This document shows positions 9,174 through 63,285 of a stretch of DNA of 64,000 nucleotides, in pieces; position 1 is the first letter of the stretch, and each line of letters opens with the position of its first letter. The notes below the pieces were generated by a model. It was not told where the DNA came from and ran no database searches. It was given only the letters and a program-made list of their open reading frames with translations. Origin of the DNA: a virus. A program made the translations under genes and the position numbers. The stretch lies in IMG/VR virus record IMGVR_UViG_3300045921_000484, positions 25,258 to 89,257 of that record, one strand, 5' to 3'.

Positions 9174-9713
9174 TCATGGCTTCCTATCAAGTTGGTAAGC
9201 GTTTTCTAACCTATATAGATAATCATATAATTTAATCTTTAACTTTTCTAAAAAATTTAACTTTCTTTCTTTAGAAATCATTAAATAATAAAGCTTTCCA
9301 AATCTAATATCATATTTTATCCCATCTCGCTCTATTGAAATTATAGTATTAAAAGAAAAACATTTACCAACCTGCCTACTAGCCATTAGAATATTAAATC
9401 TATTATTTATGAAGTTATCTAATATCTCTTTTTGATAATCTCTTAATTTTATATTATTAATAGTCCCATCTTCTGTCTTTACTTTACAGTATTTTTCCGT
9501 GAAGTAGTGAACATCGAGAGCACATTTAATATATTCTTGTTGTTCTTCTTCTGTCATCTTAAATGACACACCAGATCTTCTTAGGCCAATTTCACTTTTC
9601 AGCCATGGATTTTGATATCTCTTTAAGACGATACCATCATTTATTTTATCTGTTGCTTCATCAACTAATCTTGTTGTGAACACCATTTGTCTCTCTTGTT
9701 GTTTAACTGACAT
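9174..9713 (-). CDS. terL: terminase large subunit N-terminal part fused to N-terminal intein half
   Basis: 179 aa. Residues 1-117 are the terminase N-domain, with the adenine-binding region (LRDYQKEIL) and the first part of Walker A (MASRQVGK). At residue 118 a Cys (CFSFNTIISI) starts the intein. The homologous intein part ends near residue 145 (FGKLYYLM); the remaining 34 residues are a charged helical extension. The intein therefore interrupts the P-loop between Lys and Thr, the most conserved point of the ATPase. The protein is inactive unless spliced in trans to the product of 5953..8175. It is divergently arranged with the gene at 9762. Confidence 0.88.
   Translation of the reverse strand: MSVKQQERQMVFTTRLVDEATDKINDGIVLKRYQNPWLKSEIGLRRSGVSFKMTEEEQQEYIKCALDVHYFTEKYCKVKTEDGTINNIKLRDYQKEILDNFINNRFNILMASRQVGKCFSFNTIISIERDGIKYDIRFGKLYYLMISKERKLNFLEKLKIKLYDYLYRLENAYQLDRKP
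9177..9362 (-). mobile_element. split intein, N-fragment (62 aa)
   Basis: Begins with the nucleophilic Cys and holds only block A before a helical extension. Short N-fragments of this kind are known for the atypically split inteins in TerL genes (for example AceL-TerL). Confidence 0.85.
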
Positions 9714-9732
9714 AAAGGAAAATTATTTTTTT

Positions 9733-9741
9733 TAATATATA
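9733..9741 (+). promoter_or_regulatory. TAATATATA promoter-like element
   Basis: Preceded by a run of seven T; 20 nt before the ATG at 9762. The overlapping sequence is nearly palindromic and could also serve terL on the other strand. Confidence 0.5.
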
Positions 9742-9761
9742 TTGTAAAAAACCGCCTTTCT

Positions 9762-10394
9762 ATGTCGAAAACAGAAAATGAAAGAAATAGATTACAAGAT
9801 GAGTTTGACCAAATTCAGTCAGAAAGTGGTGAATTTGATATATCTAAACACTTAGCTAAACCAGAAGATCTACCGGATTTAGGTGAAATAAAGATATATG
9901 ACTATGACTCCGATATGACTGTTGCTAGTCAACAGTCAATGGAGGTGCTTGAATCTTTAGTTGATTTATATTTGAGTGACGTTCCTCAATTAAAGCAACA
10001 TCCATATATTAGGAATAAAATGAAGGAAGATGCTATGGTTTATGCTGAATCCATTTTTTTATCCAAAATGACTAGAAAAAATTTCTTATCGCAACTAAGA
10101 CAAATTGATAATGGAGATAATTCAGCTAGGATGCATGAAGTTGTCAATCAAACTATTGCTCAAATAAGAGAGAATGCTAAGTTTTCTTCCACACAAAGAA
10201 CAGAATTGGAAAAGTTCTATAAGAATCTAAGAAAAGATTTAGGTCTTAATGATATCGAAAGTCCTGAAGTGAGGAAGGCAACACAAGAAGCATCTTCTGA
10301 TTCACAAGAGGACGAAGGTATTGGTTCTATAATAGATAATCGTAAACTAAATGATATGATTAAAGCTGCAATGAATAAGGATAAGAAGGATTAA
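9762..10394 (+). CDS. acidic helical protein divergent from terL
   Basis: 210 aa, mostly alpha-helical and charged, rich in Gln, Asp and Glu, with no transmembrane segment. No family is recognised. It lies immediately beside terL on the opposite strand with its own TAATATATA promoter. A small terminase subunit or a head-assembly factor is possible by position only. The segment of residues about 45-135 looks ordered (YDYDSDMTVASQQSMEVLES onward), while the last 35 residues look disordered. Its 3' end overlaps the convergent gene by 4 bp. Confidence 0.6.
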   Translation: MSKTENERNRLQDEFDQIQSESGEFDISKHLAKPEDLPDLGEIKIYDYDSDMTVASQQSMEVLESLVDLYLSDVPQLKQHPYIRNKMKEDAMVYAESIFLSKMTRKNFLSQLRQIDNGDNSARMHEVVNQTIAQIRENAKFSSTQRTELEKFYKNLRKDLGLNDIESPEVRKATQEASSDSQEDEGIGSIIDNRKLNDMIKAAMNKDKKD

Positions 10395-24436: not shown

Positions 24437-25549
24437 ATGAGGGTATTTATAACTAGTGATTGGCATTTTGGTGTTTACCTTAATAATTTAGATAAATGGT
24501 TGGATATGATGGAAGACTATTTCTATAATTCTTTTATACCATATATAAAAGAAAATGCCAAAGAAGGTGATATAATGATACACTGTGGTGACCTTTATGA
24601 TAACAGAACATCAATCCCTATAATAGCTTCATATAAAGCTGAAAAAATACTTCTAGAGCTTTCTAAAATAATGCCGTTGCACATAATTGTTGGTAATCAC
24701 GATCTTTGGAATAAGGGAACAAATGATGTTAATTCTGTGAGATTATTCAATCATATTAGTAATATTCACGTTTACACCGAAACAACATCAATCGAAGTTA
24801 TGGGTAAGAAGTTAGTACTTATGCCTTGGGTTGAAAATAGATTAGATATGATTAAGGAAATTAAATCTAATCCAGGTGATTATTTATTTTGTCACTCTGA
24901 TTTGAATGGGTGTAGGATGCATTTAAACTCAGTTGCTCATAGAAATGCTGATAAGATTGATGTTGTGGAGTTTAGTGGATATAAGCATGTATTTTCTGGA
25001 CATATACATATACGTCAACAAAATGAGAACTTTTCTTTTGTTGGTTCTCCTTATCAAATGGATAGAAATGACATGGGTGATCAAAAGGGTATCACTATAC
25101 TTGACCTATCAACTGGTAAAATTGATTTTGAACCTAATAAATATTCACCGGTATTCAGAAAGTTTTCTATTAGAACCGAAGAAGACGTTGATAGATTAGA
25201 TGAACTAAAAGACACTAAGGATTACATAGATTTATCTATTTCGAATAATTTATTAGTTACTAATAGAAAACTTCGTAGAAAGCTAGAGGTTATGCTTGAG
25301 AAAGGTAACTTTGCTTCTGTTGAGTATATTGATGATATTGTGAGTGAAGATACAACTGAAAATAATGAGTCTATTGAAGTTAAGGAAGATGAATTAGATG
25401 TCTCTATACAATTTGAATATGAAGAGTATATTAAAGAATATATCCTTAGACAAAAGTATGATAATGATAAATTCAAGAATGGTGTTCTTACTGAATATGA
25501 TGAGATTGTTAAGATATTTAATGAGAACTATAAATCTAAGACAGACTAA
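24437..25549 (+). CDS. SbcD/gp47-like recombination nuclease subunit
   Basis: 370 aa metallophosphoesterase. Metal-binding motifs appear in order: D8-x-H10 (TSDWHF), G51-D52 (CGDLYDNR), GNHD (86-89), H153 (FCHSD) and GHIH (188-191). The C-terminal 150 residues form the capping/coiled region that contacts the SMC-type partner. With a gp46/SbcC ATPase this enzyme trims double-strand ends for recombination-dependent replication. No gp46 gene is in the window. The stop overlaps the next ATG (TAATGA). Confidence 0.88.
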   Translation: MRVFITSDWHFGVYLNNLDKWLDMMEDYFYNSFIPYIKENAKEGDIMIHCGDLYDNRTSIPIIASYKAEKILLELSKIMPLHIIVGNHDLWNKGTNDVNSVRLFNHISNIHVYTETTSIEVMGKKLVLMPWVENRLDMIKEIKSNPGDYLFCHSDLNGCRMHLNSVAHRNADKIDVVEFSGYKHVFSGHIHIRQQNENFSFVGSPYQMDRNDMGDQKGITILDLSTGKIDFEPNKYSPVFRKFSIRTEEDVDRLDELKDTKDYIDLSISNNLLVTNRKLRRKLEVMLEKGNFASVEYIDDIVSEDTTENNESIEVKEDELDVSIQFEYEEYIKEYILRQKYDNDKFKNGVLTEYDEIVKIFNENYKSKTD

Positions 25550-56441: not shown

Positions 56442-57227
56442 ATGCCAGAATTAGTTGAAGTTAAAATAATGTCTGATTATATCAATCAGAATTCAAAGAA
56501 TCGTAAATTTTCCAAATTATATCACGTTGAAAGGGGAAATAATCCAGTCGATTCCAAATTAATTGAAGATTTTAGTGTTGAGTCAGATTCAAATGGTAAA
56601 GAGTTACTGTTAAGAGTATATCATGATTTTGCAGATCTTAAATTCTCTGTATTTATGGGCATGAGTGGTAATTGGAAGTTTGTTCCAACTATTGAGTGGA
56701 ACAATACTAATTTTGTTAGGATGAGATTAGACACATTTGATGGATATTCATTAATCTTATATGGTGGGTATATGGGGCCTAAATATAAGCTTGGTGGATT
56801 TACTGGTGTTAAGAGAGGGCCAGATCCAACAAAAGAATTTGACACATTTAAGGCTAATGTTCTTAATAATCTAGAAAATAAGGCATTTGATAAACCAATT
56901 TGTGAAGCATTATTGAATCAATCATATTTTAATGGAATAGGTAATTACCTAAGAAGTACAATACTATATTATCTTGATATTAATCCGTTTGAGAAAGCTC
57001 GATATGTAATAAATAAATATCCGAAAATTTTAGATATGTGTAGAGACATTCCTAATAAAGCATATCAATTAAATGGTGGTCAATTAAGAGATTGGAAGAA
57101 CCCATTTGATACGGATTATGATAAGTTTATTGAATGGGTTTTTTATCAGAAAGGAATCTCTTGTAAAGATAAGACAGGTAGAACATTTTGGTATAATGAG
57201 AAGTGGAAAGATGAATGCCCCTATTAA
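56442..57227 (+). CDS. Fpg/Nei-type DNA glycosylase, zincless
   Basis: 261 aa. The mature N terminus P2-E3 (MPELVEV) is the catalytic pair of formamidopyrimidine/endonuclease VIII glycosylases. K53 (NGKELLL) fits the conserved beta-strand Lys. ALLNQSYFNGIGNYLRSTIL (about 155-174) is the helix-two-turn-helix. The C-terminal finger keeps the functional Arg (TGRTFWY) but lacks the four-Cys zinc site, as in viral and plant zincless relatives. It removes oxidised bases and nicks the strand. It lies 32 nt after the leader-bearing gene. Confidence 0.88.
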   Translation: MPELVEVKIMSDYINQNSKNRKFSKLYHVERGNNPVDSKLIEDFSVESDSNGKELLLRVYHDFADLKFSVFMGMSGNWKFVPTIEWNNTNFVRMRLDTFDGYSLILYGGYMGPKYKLGGFTGVKRGPDPTKEFDTFKANVLNNLENKAFDKPICEALLNQSYFNGIGNYLRSTILYYLDINPFEKARYVINKYPKILDMCRDIPNKAYQLNGGQLRDWKNPFDTDYDKFIEWVFYQKGISCKDKTGRTFWYNEKWKDECPY

Positions 57228-57257: not shown

Positions 57258-57746
57258 GTGTTTGATTGTAACTTTAATATAATAATGGGTGATAGAATGT
57301 CTGGTAAAACAACATACTTAGTGTGTTTATCAAATTTGATGATGATTGGTGGATTAAGAGTTTGTTTTATAGGAGGTTCTACTGAGCTGGAAAATTCACC
57401 AAATGTGCAAAATACAGCTAACATTGTTAGATTTATTAAAGGCTCCGGGACGAATTCTGATAAGTGTAATCTAAAGATGTTAGAGTCTATAAGAGAAATA
57501 TCACATAGAGATAAATATGATTTTATTTTGGTTGATGACTTTGATCTATTATCAAAAAAATGTATTGAGTTATTAAAGTCTATCAAAATTAAAAAAATAG
57601 TAACTTGCTCGATGAATGAAATACCTATTTTGAATGAATCAATATCAACATATCAACTATCTGACTATAAAATAGACAAATTTGGATTTATGGATTTATC
57701 AAGAATATTGATAAGAGATAAAAAAATAAAAGAAATATTAAAATGA
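57258..57746 (+). CDS. P-loop NTPase adjacent to thyA
   Basis: 162 aa if read from GTG (57258). The first ATG in frame (57285) would remove the strand before the P-loop, so the GTG start is preferred. Walker A is IIMGDRMSGKTT, and Walker B is YDFILVDDFDLL. The order and size recall thymidine-kinase-like or RecA-like small NTPases, but no zinc ribbon is present. It overlaps thyA by 4 bp (ATGA), suggesting a nucleotide-metabolism role. Kinase activity is unproven. Confidence 0.6.
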   Translation: MFDCNFNIIMGDRMSGKTTYLVCLSNLMMIGGLRVCFIGGSTELENSPNVQNTANIVRFIKGSGTNSDKCNLKMLESIREISHRDKYDFILVDDFDLLSKKCIELLKSIKIKKIVTCSMNEIPILNESISTYQLSDYKIDKFGFMDLSRILIRDKKIKEILK

Positions 57747-58795
57747 ATAATAACGTAGATAGACAATATTTTGAACTTATTAGACATATTCTAAATAATG
57801 GTACAAAGAAAATAGATAGAACAGGCACAGGCACAATTTCCGTATTTGATTATACGATGAGATTTAATATGAGTGAGGGTTTCCCCTTACTCACTTCAAA
57901 AAAAATGTTTATCAAGGGGATTATACATGAACTGATTTGGTTCCTTCGAGGAGATACTAATATTAAGTATCTTGTTGACAATGATGTTCACATTTGGGAT
58001 GGAGATGCTTATAAGAACTATCTAAATCGATATCGCAATGTAAATAATCATCCTTTATCAAAAGAAGAATTCATTAATAAAATAAAAACCGATGATGAGT
58101 TTGCTAAGAAGTGGGGTGAATTAGGTCCTATTTACGGGGCACAGTGGCGTAACTGGGGAAGGAATTATATTTCTGATTCATCTATCAGTTTAAGTCATTC
58201 AAAATTATCGGGTGGTAAATATATCGACCAAATTGCAAATTTAATTAATGAGCTTAAAAATAATCCAGATTCAAGAAGATTGATGGTGTCTGCTTGGAAT
58301 GTTGGTGAGTTAGACCAAATGGCTCTTCCTCCCTGTCATTATGGGTTTCAGTGTTATACACAAGAAATGAATATGTTTGAGAGAAAAAAGTATTGGTGTG
58401 ATTCGATCGGTAAGAGCATTAATTATGCTGAGGATTTCACAGATATTGAATTGGACAATATGGGAATCCCTAAGAGAAGAATAAGTTTGAAGTGGACTCA
58501 AAGATCTTGCGATGTGCCACTTGGAATTCCGTTTAATATTGCCTCTTACGGGTTTTTATTACATTTATTGGCTAGAGAGGTAAATATGATTCCACATGAA
58601 TTAATATTTTCAGGAGGTGATTGTCATATTTATTTAAATCAAATAGATGCTATTAAGGATCAACTAAATAATAAGACTTTTACCTTACCTAAATTAGTTT
58701 TGAATAATAAATCAATAGATGATTTGAGATATGAGGATTTTCAAATAATCGGATACCAATCTTCTGATTCCGTTAAAATTCCTTTATCAAACTAA
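57743..58795 (+). CDS. thyA: thymidylate synthase (ThyA type)
   Basis: 350 aa, longer than E. coli ThyA (264) and T4 Td (286). It makes dTMP from dUMP with methylenetetrahydrofolate. RTGTGTISVFDYTMRF is the dUMP-phosphate loop. MALPPCHYGFQ holds the catalytic Cys (near residue 200), RSCDVPLGIPFNIASYG the second conserved block, and GDCHIYLNQ the end of the active site. The extra length comes from an insertion near residues 95-125 and one of about 40 residues after GFQCY (FERKKYWCDSIGKSIN onward). No intron is present, unlike T4 td. Confidence 0.93.
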   Translation: MNNNVDRQYFELIRHILNNGTKKIDRTGTGTISVFDYTMRFNMSEGFPLLTSKKMFIKGIIHELIWFLRGDTNIKYLVDNDVHIWDGDAYKNYLNRYRNVNNHPLSKEEFINKIKTDDEFAKKWGELGPIYGAQWRNWGRNYISDSSISLSHSKLSGGKYIDQIANLINELKNNPDSRRLMVSAWNVGELDQMALPPCHYGFQCYTQEMNMFERKKYWCDSIGKSINYAEDFTDIELDNMGIPKRRISLKWTQRSCDVPLGIPFNIASYGFLLHLLAREVNMIPHELIFSGGDCHIYLNQIDAIKDQLNNKTFTLPKLVLNNKSIDDLRYEDFQIIGYQSSDSVKIPLSN

Positions 58796-59564: not shown

Positions 59565-61229
59565 ATGTTAATTGAAACGCAGTATTTAACAAATAGTAAG
59601 AAATTAGTAGTAAGTTACGTTGATAAGAGTGGAGATATAAAGCTTAAGTACTTTAATTGGGATACACCAATGAAATATGTTTCTTGTGAGGACTCAGATC
59701 CACAGAAGCACCCAAGATTTAAATCTTGGGATGGTAAGTCTGTAAAACAAATAGAGGTTAATCAACCAGATAGATATGCTATTTATGAGTTCCTTGATGC
59801 TTTACCAGAAGATGAGAAGAATGAAATATTCGAATTTAATCTACCTAAGATATATTTTATAGATATCGAGACCGAGATTATTGATGGGTTTCCTGAAGCA
59901 TCTGAGGCCAATACGAGAGTATTATCAATTTCAATTGTTTATGATAATAAAATAATTCTTTTGGGTCTTAAAGAGATGTCACAAGAGATGCAGGATAGAA
60001 TAATTAATAACACAAATAAGTACTTTGAGAAGTTCAATGCTGATTATAAGTTCAAATACATCAAATATGAAGATGAGTTTGATATGTTATATGCGTTTTT
60101 CTATAAAATGGTTCCTAAAATGCCACTTCTAACTGGTTGGAACTTTTTAAATTATGACTGGACATATTTAGTTAATCGTTCAAGAAAAATATCTAAATGG
60201 GTTAATGGTAAGGAATATAAAATTGATCCAGCTGTTTCTTCTTTGACTAAGAGATTGAATAAAATTTGGGCAACTGAATATGAAGTACCTGCACATCGAA
60301 TGATATTTGACTATATGCAATTGTACGAGATATGTGATACCTCTATTAAGGTAAAAGAATCATCATCATTAGATTTCGTTTCTAGTAAATTGGTTGGAAT
60401 TGAGAAGATTAAGTATGTTAGTTCAATTTATAAGTTGAAGGATGATTCAACTATAATGGGTTATTCTTTTAAGAAGGGTGATATTTGTAGAAATGATAAA
60501 GAAGGATTCTATATGTATATTGGTACTAAAAGGATAAATATACCTGATGACAAATTTATTTCTTTAAAACACTTATTTGAGGAAATAAACGTATCTAACT
60601 TACAGAAGTTATATGATACAGACTTTGAAATCTATATGTACTATAATACGGTCGACTCCGTTCTTGTTCAGAAGATACATGAAGCCAGAAACTATATCTC
60701 AATAATTTATGCGATTTCATCATTGGCTCAAATTAGAATAGTTGACGTAGTTTCACAGATGAATAATGCACTTGGCTCACTTGCTATTACAGAGGGAGTT
60801 CTTAGAAATAGATTCAGAGATATGGATAATATAGTACTCTTCAAAGATGAAAGAGGAGACACTGAATCTACTATTGCTGGTGGTTGGGTTAAAGACCCCG
60901 TTGTTGGATTGAATCAGTGGGTTGTTTGTTATGACTTCGCATCACTTTATCCTACGACACAAAGACAATTCTATATTGCTCCAGAGACATTTGTTGGTGT
61001 TCAGAGATCTGATAATCCTAAATACTGTGATAATGGTAAAGAAATTGACCTTGAGAAGCATGTGGTTTGTGTTAATGGTGTTGTATTTGAGAAAAGAAAA
61101 TCACCAACACTTCAAATGCTTGAAGATGTTTATGCTGACCGTAAGAAAAACAAAAATATAATGATGGATAAAAAGGAAGAACTTAAAAAAGTTCTTGATG
61201 AAATTAAGAAGTTAGAAGCTGAATTGTAA
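59565..61229 (+). CDS. family B DNA polymerase, N-terminal half (gp43A-like)
   Basis: 554 aa. Exonuclease motifs: Exo I YFIDIETEI (D100, E102), Exo II GWNFLNYDWT (D198), Exo III YNTVDSVLV (near 360). Polymerase motif A is YDFASLYPTT (D457). The protein then continues into the fingers (EDVYADRKKNKNIMMD) and stops in a charged helix before motif B (KxxxNSxYG) and motif C (YGDTDS). The rest of the palm and the thumb are not in this window. T4-like phages with polymerase split into gp43A and gp43B at about this point are known. No stop-suppressing frame continues the gene: the next genes are unrelated. Confidence 0.9.
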   Translation: MLIETQYLTNSKKLVVSYVDKSGDIKLKYFNWDTPMKYVSCEDSDPQKHPRFKSWDGKSVKQIEVNQPDRYAIYEFLDALPEDEKNEIFEFNLPKIYFIDIETEIIDGFPEASEANTRVLSISIVYDNKIILLGLKEMSQEMQDRIINNTNKYFEKFNADYKFKYIKYEDEFDMLYAFFYKMVPKMPLLTGWNFLNYDWTYLVNRSRKISKWVNGKEYKIDPAVSSLTKRLNKIWATEYEVPAHRMIFDYMQLYEICDTSIKVKESSSLDFVSSKLVGIEKIKYVSSIYKLKDDSTIMGYSFKKGDICRNDKEGFYMYIGTKRINIPDDKFISLKHLFEEINVSNLQKLYDTDFEIYMYYNTVDSVLVQKIHEARNYISIIYAISSLAQIRIVDVVSQMNNALGSLAITEGVLRNRFRDMDNIVLFKDERGDTESTIAGGWVKDPVVGLNQWVVCYDFASLYPTTQRQFYIAPETFVGVQRSDNPKYCDNGKEIDLEKHVVCVNGVVFEKRKSPTLQMLEDVYADRKKNKNIMMDKKEELKKVLDEIKKLEAEL

Positions 61230-61269: not shown

Positions 61270-61500
61270 ATGAAAGCGATTTGTATAAAAAGTAAAATAT
61301 TTGACTTTGGATCCTCTTATGGAGGTACTCAATTCAAAGTGGAAAAAGGAAAAGTGTATGAATACATAAAGGATAATTTTGGATTTAATATACAAGATGA
61401 AGATAGAAGAAATCTTTATTATACTATAATAAATTTTCATGAATTTTTCATAGATATTATTGAATATAGAGAACAAAAAATAAATAAAATATTGAATTAA
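61270..61500 (+). CDS. small hypothetical protein after the split polymerase
   Basis: 76 aa, MKAICIKSKIFDFGSSYGGT. A beta-rich start (TQFKVEKGKVYEYI) is followed by a helix. It looks like the small SH3-like proteins common in Bacteroidetes phages, but no family is assigned. It occupies the position where the polymerase C-terminal half would be expected. Confidence 0.45.
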   Translation: MKAICIKSKIFDFGSSYGGTQFKVEKGKVYEYIKDNFGFNIQDEDRRNLYYTIINFHEFFIDIIEYREQKINKILN

Positions 61501-61592: not shown

Positions 61593-61619
61593 AAAAATCC
61601 ACCAAATGGTGGATTTTTT
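61593..61619. terminator. bidirectional intrinsic terminator
   Basis: AATCCACC / GGTGGATT stem between A and T runs. It ends the helicase gene on the minus strand and the polymerase transcript on the plus strand. Confidence 0.85.
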
Positions 61620-63285
61620 ATTCACTTATTTTAACATTAATCTTTCTTATAGCTTCTTGTATCCAGTCAGGTAAGAAGTGTGAACTATGTTTAATAACAT
61701 CACCAAATGATGCATCTATGATAATTGTATCAGCATAATCCATCTCAGAACGAACCGGTCTACCTGTCATCTGAATCAAACCGGAAACTGTCTTCCATGC
61801 GTACCAATCAGGATTATTTTTCTGTCTCAATTTATTTTTTTGTGATCCTAAACTAGGATAAGGAACTTTAGCAATTATCTGAAATCTAGCAGAATCATTA
61901 TCAAATGACACACCAGTATCCATACTCGGACTAACAATAACAGTTGGCTCTTCTGATTCCATGTGCATTCTCAACATCTCATCTTTATTAGATGAATCGT
62001 GAAATATTAATCTTGGATCTTTAATAGAATCCTCTATCCACTTAGACAATTCAAATGAGTTAGTATGTATGATTCCTTTCTTATTTTTATACTTTTCTAG
62101 TAACTTCTTTATATACGGAATATACTTTTTGAATGTTTCACCTTTAGTCTTATATGACATTTTACCAATAGGCATATAATATATTAATCTATTCTTAACG
62201 TTGAATGGTGATGGTATAGAGTAATAAACTGCTTTTGTAACATCAAGACCATTTAATTGACAAAATAGGTTTTTATCAAGAATAGTACCAGACATTAGGA
62301 ATACCATGTCATATCTACTAAATACATACTTATCTAAGTAATCATATGCCCAAATTGGTTCTAATGATAATTCTTTCTGATTCAACTTCTCATTATAATA
62401 GGTCTCTAATACCCAGTTATTTGGATTATCCTTATATTCTTTCAAGAAAACCTCAATCTTCAACTGATACTGTCTAAGATCGGTAATCATTTGCATGAAC
62501 TTGACATCAGAGTTTTTACTATTTAAAAGTTTAGATAGCTTCAAATCTCTTTTATCAGACTTAGCACTTCTATGAACTGAGATCATACCTTTTTCCATCT
62601 CATCAATTGTGACTATAATTTCATTATTTAGATATTTTAAAAAGTCAACATATTGGCTTATGGAAGTAACACCTTTTAATGTCTTAATGATATCATACTC
62701 ATTAGCGAACTTGTATTTCTTAATAACATTCTCTGTTATCTTTATAGATATAAAGTCACTCATAACATCATCAAATTCGTGCGCTTCATCCACAATTAAC
62801 ACTCTAGAATCTCTAGCATCCATAAATTTAGAGTTATAGATAGCATAAAGTATGTACAAGTAGAAATTAGTTAATGATATACCACCACTTATAAATGATT
62901 CACGAGCACTTGAGTATGGACAAGTCTCACAAGATGTCTTATTAAGACGGTTAAACTCAGCACCTTGGGCACAAGAACAAGAATAACTCTCACATTCATA
63001 GTTTTCTTTACCTTTTAGATCATTAATAGATTCATATGTATTAACGTATTGGTCTTGTAAGATTTTACTGTTTGTTATAATATCAATCTTAGACATTTTA
63101 TTGACATTTTTCCTATACCAGTCAGCTATCATTAGGGCTAAATGTGATTTACCACTTCCAACTGGTAGGTTGAGTAGGAAAAACTTATTTAGTTTATTCT
63201 TTTGATATTCTTTATCAATAAATTCAAGAGCCTCTTTTTGTTCCTTTCTGGGCTTATATTTAGCTAAATCTTTTTTAAGCGACAT
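61618..63285 (-). CDS. XPD/DinG-type helicase with iron-sulphur cluster
   Basis: 555 aa superfamily 2 helicase. Walker A LPVGSGKSH (residues 40-48). Cysteines C98, C103/C105, C119 and C122 between motifs I and II form the 4Fe-4S site of XPD/DinG enzymes. DEAH is at 166-169. The C-terminal motor has SPSMDTGVSF and QMTGRPVRSEMDYADT (motif VI). Such enzymes unwind DNA 5'-3', resolve R-loops or G4s and take part in repair. The position next to the polymerase suggests a replication role. TAATATACA ends just before the ATG, close to the promoter element. Confidence 0.85.
   Translation of the reverse strand: MSLKKDLAKYKPRKEQKEALEFIDKEYQKNKLNKFFLLNLPVGSGKSHLALMIADWYRKNVNKMSKIDIITNSKILQDQYVNTYESINDLKGKENYECESYSCSCAQGAEFNRLNKTSCETCPYSSARESFISGGISLTNFYLYILYAIYNSKFMDARDSRVLIVDEAHEFDDVMSDFISIKITENVIKKYKFANEYDIIKTLKGVTSISQYVDFLKYLNNEIIVTIDEMEKGMISVHRSAKSDKRDLKLSKLLNSKNSDVKFMQMITDLRQYQLKIEVFLKEYKDNPNNWVLETYYNEKLNQKELSLEPIWAYDYLDKYVFSRYDMVFLMSGTILDKNLFCQLNGLDVTKAVYYSIPSPFNVKNRLIYYMPIGKMSYKTKGETFKKYIPYIKKLLEKYKNKKGIIHTNSFELSKWIEDSIKDPRLIFHDSSNKDEMLRMHMESEEPTVIVSPSMDTGVSFDNDSARFQIIAKVPYPSLGSQKNKLRQKNNPDWYAWKTVSGLIQMTGRPVRSEMDYADTIIIDASFGDVIKHSSHFLPDWIQEAIRKINVKISE

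Follow-up and report, generated by a model that had tools for sequence, protein, structure and literature searches.

The window analysed here is a 64,000-nucleotide (nt) stretch of viral DNA, positions 25,258 to 89,257 of the IMG/VR record IMGVR_UViG_3300045921_000484, a contig of 195,295 bases. At window positions 59565-61229 (+), it carries an open reading frame (ORF) of 554 residues, running from ATG through stop, that encodes the N-terminal half (N-half) of a split T4-like family-B DNA polymerase. The ORF matches Pfam DNA_pol_B_exo1 (6.6e-11) and the PHROG family 'DNA polymerase' (9e-60), and a sequence search with it leads to RB69 and T4 gp43. The match to Pfam DNA_pol_B (2.3e-9) covers just profile positions 19-151 of 453. 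RB69 gp43 also provides the top PDB matches (E 1e-21) of the AlphaFold model of the N-half, which has a predicted local distance difference test score (pLDDT) of 84.5.

All exonuclease motifs and the DFASLYP signature had been read in this frame by the original prediction, followed by a stop in the fingers, and an alignment of 22 homologues confirms these motifs as invariant or nearly so. Exo I (D100-I-E102, 59862-59870) and Exo III (Y360..D364, 60642-60656) are invariant; in Exo II (N193..D198, W192-N-F-L-N-Y-D198, 60141-60158), D198 is invariant and N193 nearly so. Motif A, D457-FASLYP463, with the first catalytic aspartate, occupies 60933-60953; all four lie on the + strand. Exo I-III, motif A and a gp43-like fold are thus present together, as in family-B polymerases of the T4 gp43 type. 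The alignment further reveals an insertion of ~58 residues in the exonuclease domain before Exo III (residues 288-345, 60426-60599, +). Loci of relatives are labelled L plus a number. The insertion is also present in L184, one relative checked (82% identical), and is missing from most relatives, including LR745206 and LR756502.

The position of the break becomes clearer from the predicted structures. According to AlphaFold and DSSP, the N-half terminates in a 40-residue helix (residues 514-553, 61104-61226, +), the first helix of the fingers. The C-terminal half (C-half) of relatives starts with a helix of ~44 residues bearing motif B, followed by motif C (YGDTDS), KKKY and the thumb. Its model also matches RB69 gp43, more weakly than that of the N-half, with a low-confidence palm and a predicted template modelling score (pTM) of 0.43. 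With the N-half ending in, and the C-half beginning with, a fingers helix, the break falls at the tip of the two-helix fingers hairpin.

No C-half accompanies the N-half on the contig. The original prediction placed a small gene and an opposite-strand helicase in the space after the N-half, and both are there: an ORF of 76 residues at 61270-61500 (+), without a Pfam or PHROG family and distinct from the C-half, and a DNA helicase (phrog_2488) at 61618-63285 (-), whose location near the N-half is conserved in relatives, as judged by synteny. The absence of NSxYG and DTDS from the window extends to the whole 195,295-base contig, in which neither motif B nor motif C was found. PF00136 and phrog_262 match the N-half alone, and a C-half profile gives no match on the contig even at E<=1. 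The sole motif-B-like string, VKMQLNSIYG at contig position 125287, lies in a frame of ~70 codons and was dismissed as a chance occurrence.

A protein with motif B and DTDS had been expected in the rest of the genome; the contig yielded only that chance string, but a separate C-half gene is present in all eight related phage records examined, which bears out the central claim of a split polymerase with a non-adjacent other half. The two halves are 101 kb apart in LR745206, 132 kb in LR756502 and 281 kb in LR756504, on opposite strands in each of these ~635-642-kb genomes. In LR756501, the distance is ~115 kb if the genome is circular, and IMG/VR contigs with both halves display distances of 81-151 kb, mostly with opposite strands. 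As in a split PolB of the 43A/43B type, the polymerase is encoded by two ORFs, and its break lies in the fingers, past motif A and before motif B; the adjacency of the halves that characterizes this type is lacking, both on the contig and in the ~635-642-kb relatives. Shorter distances are found in Lak-B6 and LR756500 (roughly 6-10 kb) and in Sphingomonas phage PAU (gp105/gp110) and Chryseobacterium phage MA9V-2 (2-4 kb), both of which already display the split PolB that marks this lineage. The short distances in the latter two suggest that the split predates the dispersal of the halves.

The nearest annotated records are the metagenomic phages LR745206 (634,780 bases) and LR756502 (642,428 bases), which we take to be members of the Mahaphage clade and whose N-halves are 71% identical to that in the window. 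Blocks of the contig are collinear with ~165-325 kb of LR745206 and ~175-358 kb of LR756502. The C-halves of the two records, at 130.6-132.0 kb and 120.5-121.9 kb, respectively, fall ~33 kb and ~53 kb outside the collinear stretches, and hence the contig is probably a ~30% fragment of a ~640-kb Mahaphage-like genome that ends short of the partner gene. Both records resemble the >634-kb genomes of a huge-phage survey that describes this clade (PMC7162821). The main text of that survey (Al-Shayeb 2020) contains none of the terms 'DNA polymerase', 'split' and 'bypass'.

It is scarcely credible that the ORF in the window is a truncated, decaying copy of a full-length polymerase encoded elsewhere in the genome. 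The contig is merely a fragment, and absence from it is no proof; however, the N-half is under purifying selection, with a ratio of nonsynonymous to synonymous substitution rates (dN/dS) of 0.08-0.12 relative to its relatives, and retains all exonuclease and motif-A residues. It also shares its stop point with 75 relatives, as the frame ends 90-118 residues past motif A in 75 of the 77 IMG/VR loci; the other two are truncated by a contig end and an unsplit 950-residue outgroup, respectively. A full-length polymerase, which the original prediction regarded as the sign of decay, was searched for and not found, and the ~635-642-kb relatives lack a full-length PolB, PolA or PolIII alpha. Neither PolA nor PolIII alpha was found in the contig, LR745206 or LR756502; the PF07733 search for PolIII alpha gave no match, although a minimal version could escape that model. 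A split PolIII alpha has been reported in jumbo phages (Iyer 2021, PMC7824862). The low dN/dS, the shared end point and the lack of PolA and PolIII alpha together point to a functional subunit rather than a relic.

In the proposed enzyme, the N-half would supply the exonuclease for proofreading, the palm strand that bears the aspartate of motif A, and the first helix of the fingers. The separate C-half, encoded off the contig end, would contribute the other fingers helix, which bears motif B, together with the aspartates of motif C and the thumb. In the simplest mechanism, the chains most likely assemble non-covalently, with the antiparallel fingers hairpin and the palm re-forming between them, as the adjacent halves of Aeromonas phage 25 have been shown to do by co-purification and activity (PMC2988022). 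Covalent joining in trans, by a split intein or a trans-spliced RNA, is very improbable. There are known cases of split DnaE inteins whose halves lie far apart, and split inteins do occur at motif C of the C-half in several relatives, in LR756500 and in Lak. The break between the halves, in contrast, has a fingers helix at both edges, and the sequences examined display neither an intein N part closing the N-half nor an intein C part opening the C-half. The intein C part that the original prediction proposed to look for is thus absent from the break, and the inteins of relatives sit within the C-half, at motif C.

These motif-C inteins spread the polymerase over more pieces in four loci, interrupting the gene between DTD and S (L144:8128-11092, L151:8077-11074, L157:7758-11092 and L335:4040-7188). 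The intein N part is followed there by a free-standing endonuclease-like ORF of ~370 residues and then by the intein C part with the rest of the polymerase. An uninterrupted mini-intein occupies the same site in L158. The C-half ORFs of LR756500 (L069, 251413-252198) and Lak-B6 (L070, 518824-519642) end in an apparent intein N-terminal domain straight after DTDS, and the polymerases of these two phages also appear to need protein trans-splicing.

Other phages offer points of comparison for the split. PAU and MA9V-2, of the same lineage by PHROG (phrog_2062 and phrog_262), likewise encode the polymerase in two ORFs split between motifs A and B, although on one strand and in close proximity, whereas at least 80 kb separate the halves in the relatives of the window, in most cases with a change of strand. 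Gene 43 of Aeromonas phages 25 and 44RR is split into 43A and 43B, and the two proteins of phage 25 co-purify and are active as a polymerase (PMC2988022). A T4-type PolB is made from two polypeptides in these phages as well, but their halves are adjacent, with either an untranslated spacer or a gene for a seg endonuclease between them. In the lineage of the window the halves are dispersed, and no endonuclease gene was seen at the break. The homing endonuclease that the original prediction associated with such breaks is missing beside the N-half among the ORFs examined.

The C-halves of the metagenomic relatives display a second kind of interruption. Many C-half loci in IMG/VR give a full-length match and yet contain a frame break. 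In 31 distinct relatives, one insert of 36-48 nt lies within the codons of Q-L-A-L-K-L-V-L-N-G-S-Y-G, that is, at codons ~36-46 of the C-half. The corresponding interval measures exactly 54 nt in each of the 21 distinct uninterrupted relatives. All distinct inserts, comprising 30 and one more in L352, come from metagenomic contigs (L107, L118, L119, L121, L124, L125, L127-L129, L133, L134, L138, L140, L142, L144, L147-L149, L151, L157, L159-L161, L164-L166, L277, L278, L280, L319 and L352), and identical inserts were counted once (e.g. L107=L108=L109 and L142=L143). Six positions are used, with 5 distinct inserts after A, 15 after L, 8 after Y and one each after V, S and G (the last in L352).

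The inserts usually follow the same order: take-off codon, zero or one codon, in-frame stop, perfect GC hairpin, a few nucleotides and landing codon. The stop, which can be TAA, TAG or TGA, lies no more than two codons from take-off in 28/30 inserts, and the insert lengths represent all three frames. An alternative genetic code was excluded, as all three stops appear at one place and the frame is shifted by most inserts as well. In 22/22 inserts at the A, L, V and S sites, the take-off codon and the codon that precedes resumption are synonymous, the pairs being CTT or CTG with CTA (15 times), GCT with GCT or GCA, GTT with GTT and TCT with TCA; in L352, GGT is matched by GGT. Since the edge of each insert was placed to maximise codon agreement, what counts is the double encoding of the residue, with one codon on either side of the insert. 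With a downstream dN/dS of about 0.03-0.16, the sequence beyond the insert appears to be translated as polymerase.

This class of element seems confined to the C-half in the material searched. In 2.9 Mb of relative loci, no such insert was found in genes besides the C-half, where other matches look like terminators or hairpins of coding sequence. The contig itself holds a single GC hairpin of the class, in an AT-rich stretch at contig position 122469. A scan for GCTCTTNTTTARCCCCC uncovered three further new inserts, and its remaining matches were known copies or unrelated contigs without motif-B context. No Rfam family matches the inserts.

As in gene 60 of phage T4, the inserts combine a gap hairpin with a stem-loop in the coding sequence on their 5' side. 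Across the L-site set, 142/142 cells of the gap-hairpin stem are paired, and 8 of the 12 pairs display compensatory changes. At the L and A sites, a second stem forms in the coding sequence just 5' of the insert and ends at the take-off codon; it is paired to 87-90%, compared to 48% at the same positions of uninterrupted relatives. The L set additionally has an outer stem between the leader and the landing region (82% paired vs 32% in uninterrupted relatives), and the Tyr-site sequences have a different upstream stem, ending at the Tyr codon (79% vs 57%). In line with this, the upstream 75 nt of coding sequence fold with a mean of -23.8 kcal (z-score -4.2) at the A and L sites and -8.8 kcal (z-score -0.4) in uninterrupted relatives. 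A Ser residue, mostly TCA and part of the outer stem, is found in 21/27 interrupted leaders and 0/15 uninterrupted ones, which hints that the leader protein adapts to the outer stem. The leader is Lys-rich in interrupted and uninterrupted relatives alike.

On the C-half tree, presence and absence of the insert require at least 15 changes by parsimony, 9 of them forced by well-supported branches. Between L125 (insert after A) and L127 (insert after Y), synonymous divergence (pS) is 0.07-0.12 downstream and 1.03 in the leader and motif B. Similarly, L119 with a Y-site insert and L117 without one differ by a pS of 0.05-0.19 downstream and 0.72 in the leader and motif B. Insert and leader are thus exchanged together as one block, a cassette, much like homing with co-conversion. 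Homing-endonuclease-family genes (phrog_3339, phrog_12131) lie ~80 nt upstream of the C-half in L128 (8826-9923, -) and L129 (8823-9920, -), and an endonuclease VII/HNH-like gene follows the C-half directly in L128 (11474-12148, -).

The traits that the C-half inserts share with T4 gene 60 are best explained by translational bypassing, and the insert in the C-half of most close relatives is probably a bypass element resembling that of gene 60. The ribosome would stall ~37-46 codons into the C-half, leave the take-off codon just 5' of the stop codon and hairpin, land on a usually synonymous codon past the hairpin and continue translation. Some observations weigh against the overall interpretation. 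None of the eight Tyr-site inserts has a matched landing codon (0/8), and two of the eight have a stop triplet at the very position of landing. The covariation of the coding stems beyond conservation is modest, with shuffle controls of 23-33/1000 for stem P2 and 161/1000 for stem P1, and the C-half of the window's own phage was not found on the 195,295-base contig. Shuffling retains most pairing, which makes covariation support for the two coding stems weaker than that for the hairpin; a stronger case for them comes from their contrast with uninterrupted relatives. Because the codon match fails at the Tyr site, the resemblance to gene 60 concerns the would-be mechanism, and we claim no membership in the gene 60 type.

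Excision of the insert from the RNA by cutting and ligation, as a mini-intron, is favored by stems that bring the insert edges together in several folds, by the unmatched Tyr-site codons and by tRNA ligation genes reported in huge phages (PMC7162821). We nevertheless consider it unlikely: at 36-48 nt the inserts are far under the size of group I or II introns and match no Rfam family, the edge codons are synonymous in all 22 non-Tyr inserts, and a conserved in-frame stop right past take-off is meaningful only for translation. The stop codon and GC hairpin also resemble a gene end, and some inserts have an ATG past the hairpin, as expected if a leader peptide of ~37-46 residues were followed by a separately started polypeptide. 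Such further fission is improbable, as this ATG is out of frame and missing from other inserts, the motif-B frame has no conserved start codon, and the cut would split mid-way what AlphaFold models as one 44-residue helix. Moreover, leader and downstream protein are conserved in interrupted and uninterrupted forms. The metagenomic origin of the sequences raises the question of assembly errors or pseudogenes, which is hardly conceivable given more than 30 distinct sequences, identical inserts in assemblies from different datasets, purifying selection downstream and a single C-half locus on contigs with both halves.

Taken together, a two-gene family-B replicative polymerase of a huge Bacteroidetes-type (Mahaphage-like) phage, with a structured insert, probably a bypass element, in the C-half of most close relatives, is very likely as the overall explanation. 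We lean towards a scenario in which the second polymerase gene of this lineage is read by bypassing. Here, a mobile hairpin cassette of ~40 nt, together with structure-forming synonymous changes in the leader, would have entered the motif-B codons of many lineages, with six alternative positions in use, the inserts probably being immunity scars against homing endonucleases that target this conserved site.

Known bypass systems provide a frame for this proposal. To our knowledge, programmed bypassing rests on T4 gene 60, the sole well-studied phage gene, and one set in yeast mitochondria. Gene 60 is half of the split topoisomerase 39/60, with mobA between the halves, and its ribosomes cross a 50-nt gap after codon 46 with the help of a stop, a take-off hairpin, a coding 5' stem-loop and matched GGA codons (PMC5009743, PMC11194080). 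Both systems concern a split replication enzyme whose second gene contains a short structured non-coding gap, with a stop past take-off, a coding 5' stem-loop, a gap hairpin and, the Tyr site excepted, a matched landing codon; both also have homing endonuclease genes near some copies. In contrast to gene 60, the C-half inserts affect a DNA polymerase rather than a topoisomerase, have gaps of 36-48 nt with bypass predicted, use six alternative motif-B positions and show a scattered, cassette-like spread over more than 30 sequences. The mitochondria of the yeast Magnusiomyces capitatus have 81 bypass elements in their mRNAs (PMC5009743). These are likewise short, and some lack perfectly matched codons; ribosome bypass is known there and predicted here, and the C-half inserts occupy one site of one gene in many phages.

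Two unlinked polymerase genes are a natural test of the extent to which an essential enzyme can be dismantled, as two proteins from opposite strands, with genes ~100 kb apart, have to restore one active site. More important than the split itself are the motif-B inserts of the relatives. Counterparts of gene 60 bypassing have long been presumed, according to a 2016 review (PMC5009743). If bypassing holds, these phages would join gene 60 as a second strongly supported case of programmed ribosome bypassing found naturally in phages, and would be the first to offer natural variants by the dozen. The 31 variants in gaps, stops, hairpins and landing codons would then turn a single example into a comparative system.

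Several neighboring genes deserve mention. In L127, the gene directly upstream of the C-half (9439-9951) encodes translation initiation factor IF3, and ORFs that look similar, putative IF3 genes, are seen in L111, L116, L117 and L118. Within the window, the ORF at 56442-57227 has Fpg/Nei-type DNA glycosylase domains (H2TH 1.4e-6, Fapy_DNA_glyco 1.1e-4), both below the Pfam cut-offs. The ORF at 57743-58795 looks by eye like a thymidylate synthase with extra sequence.
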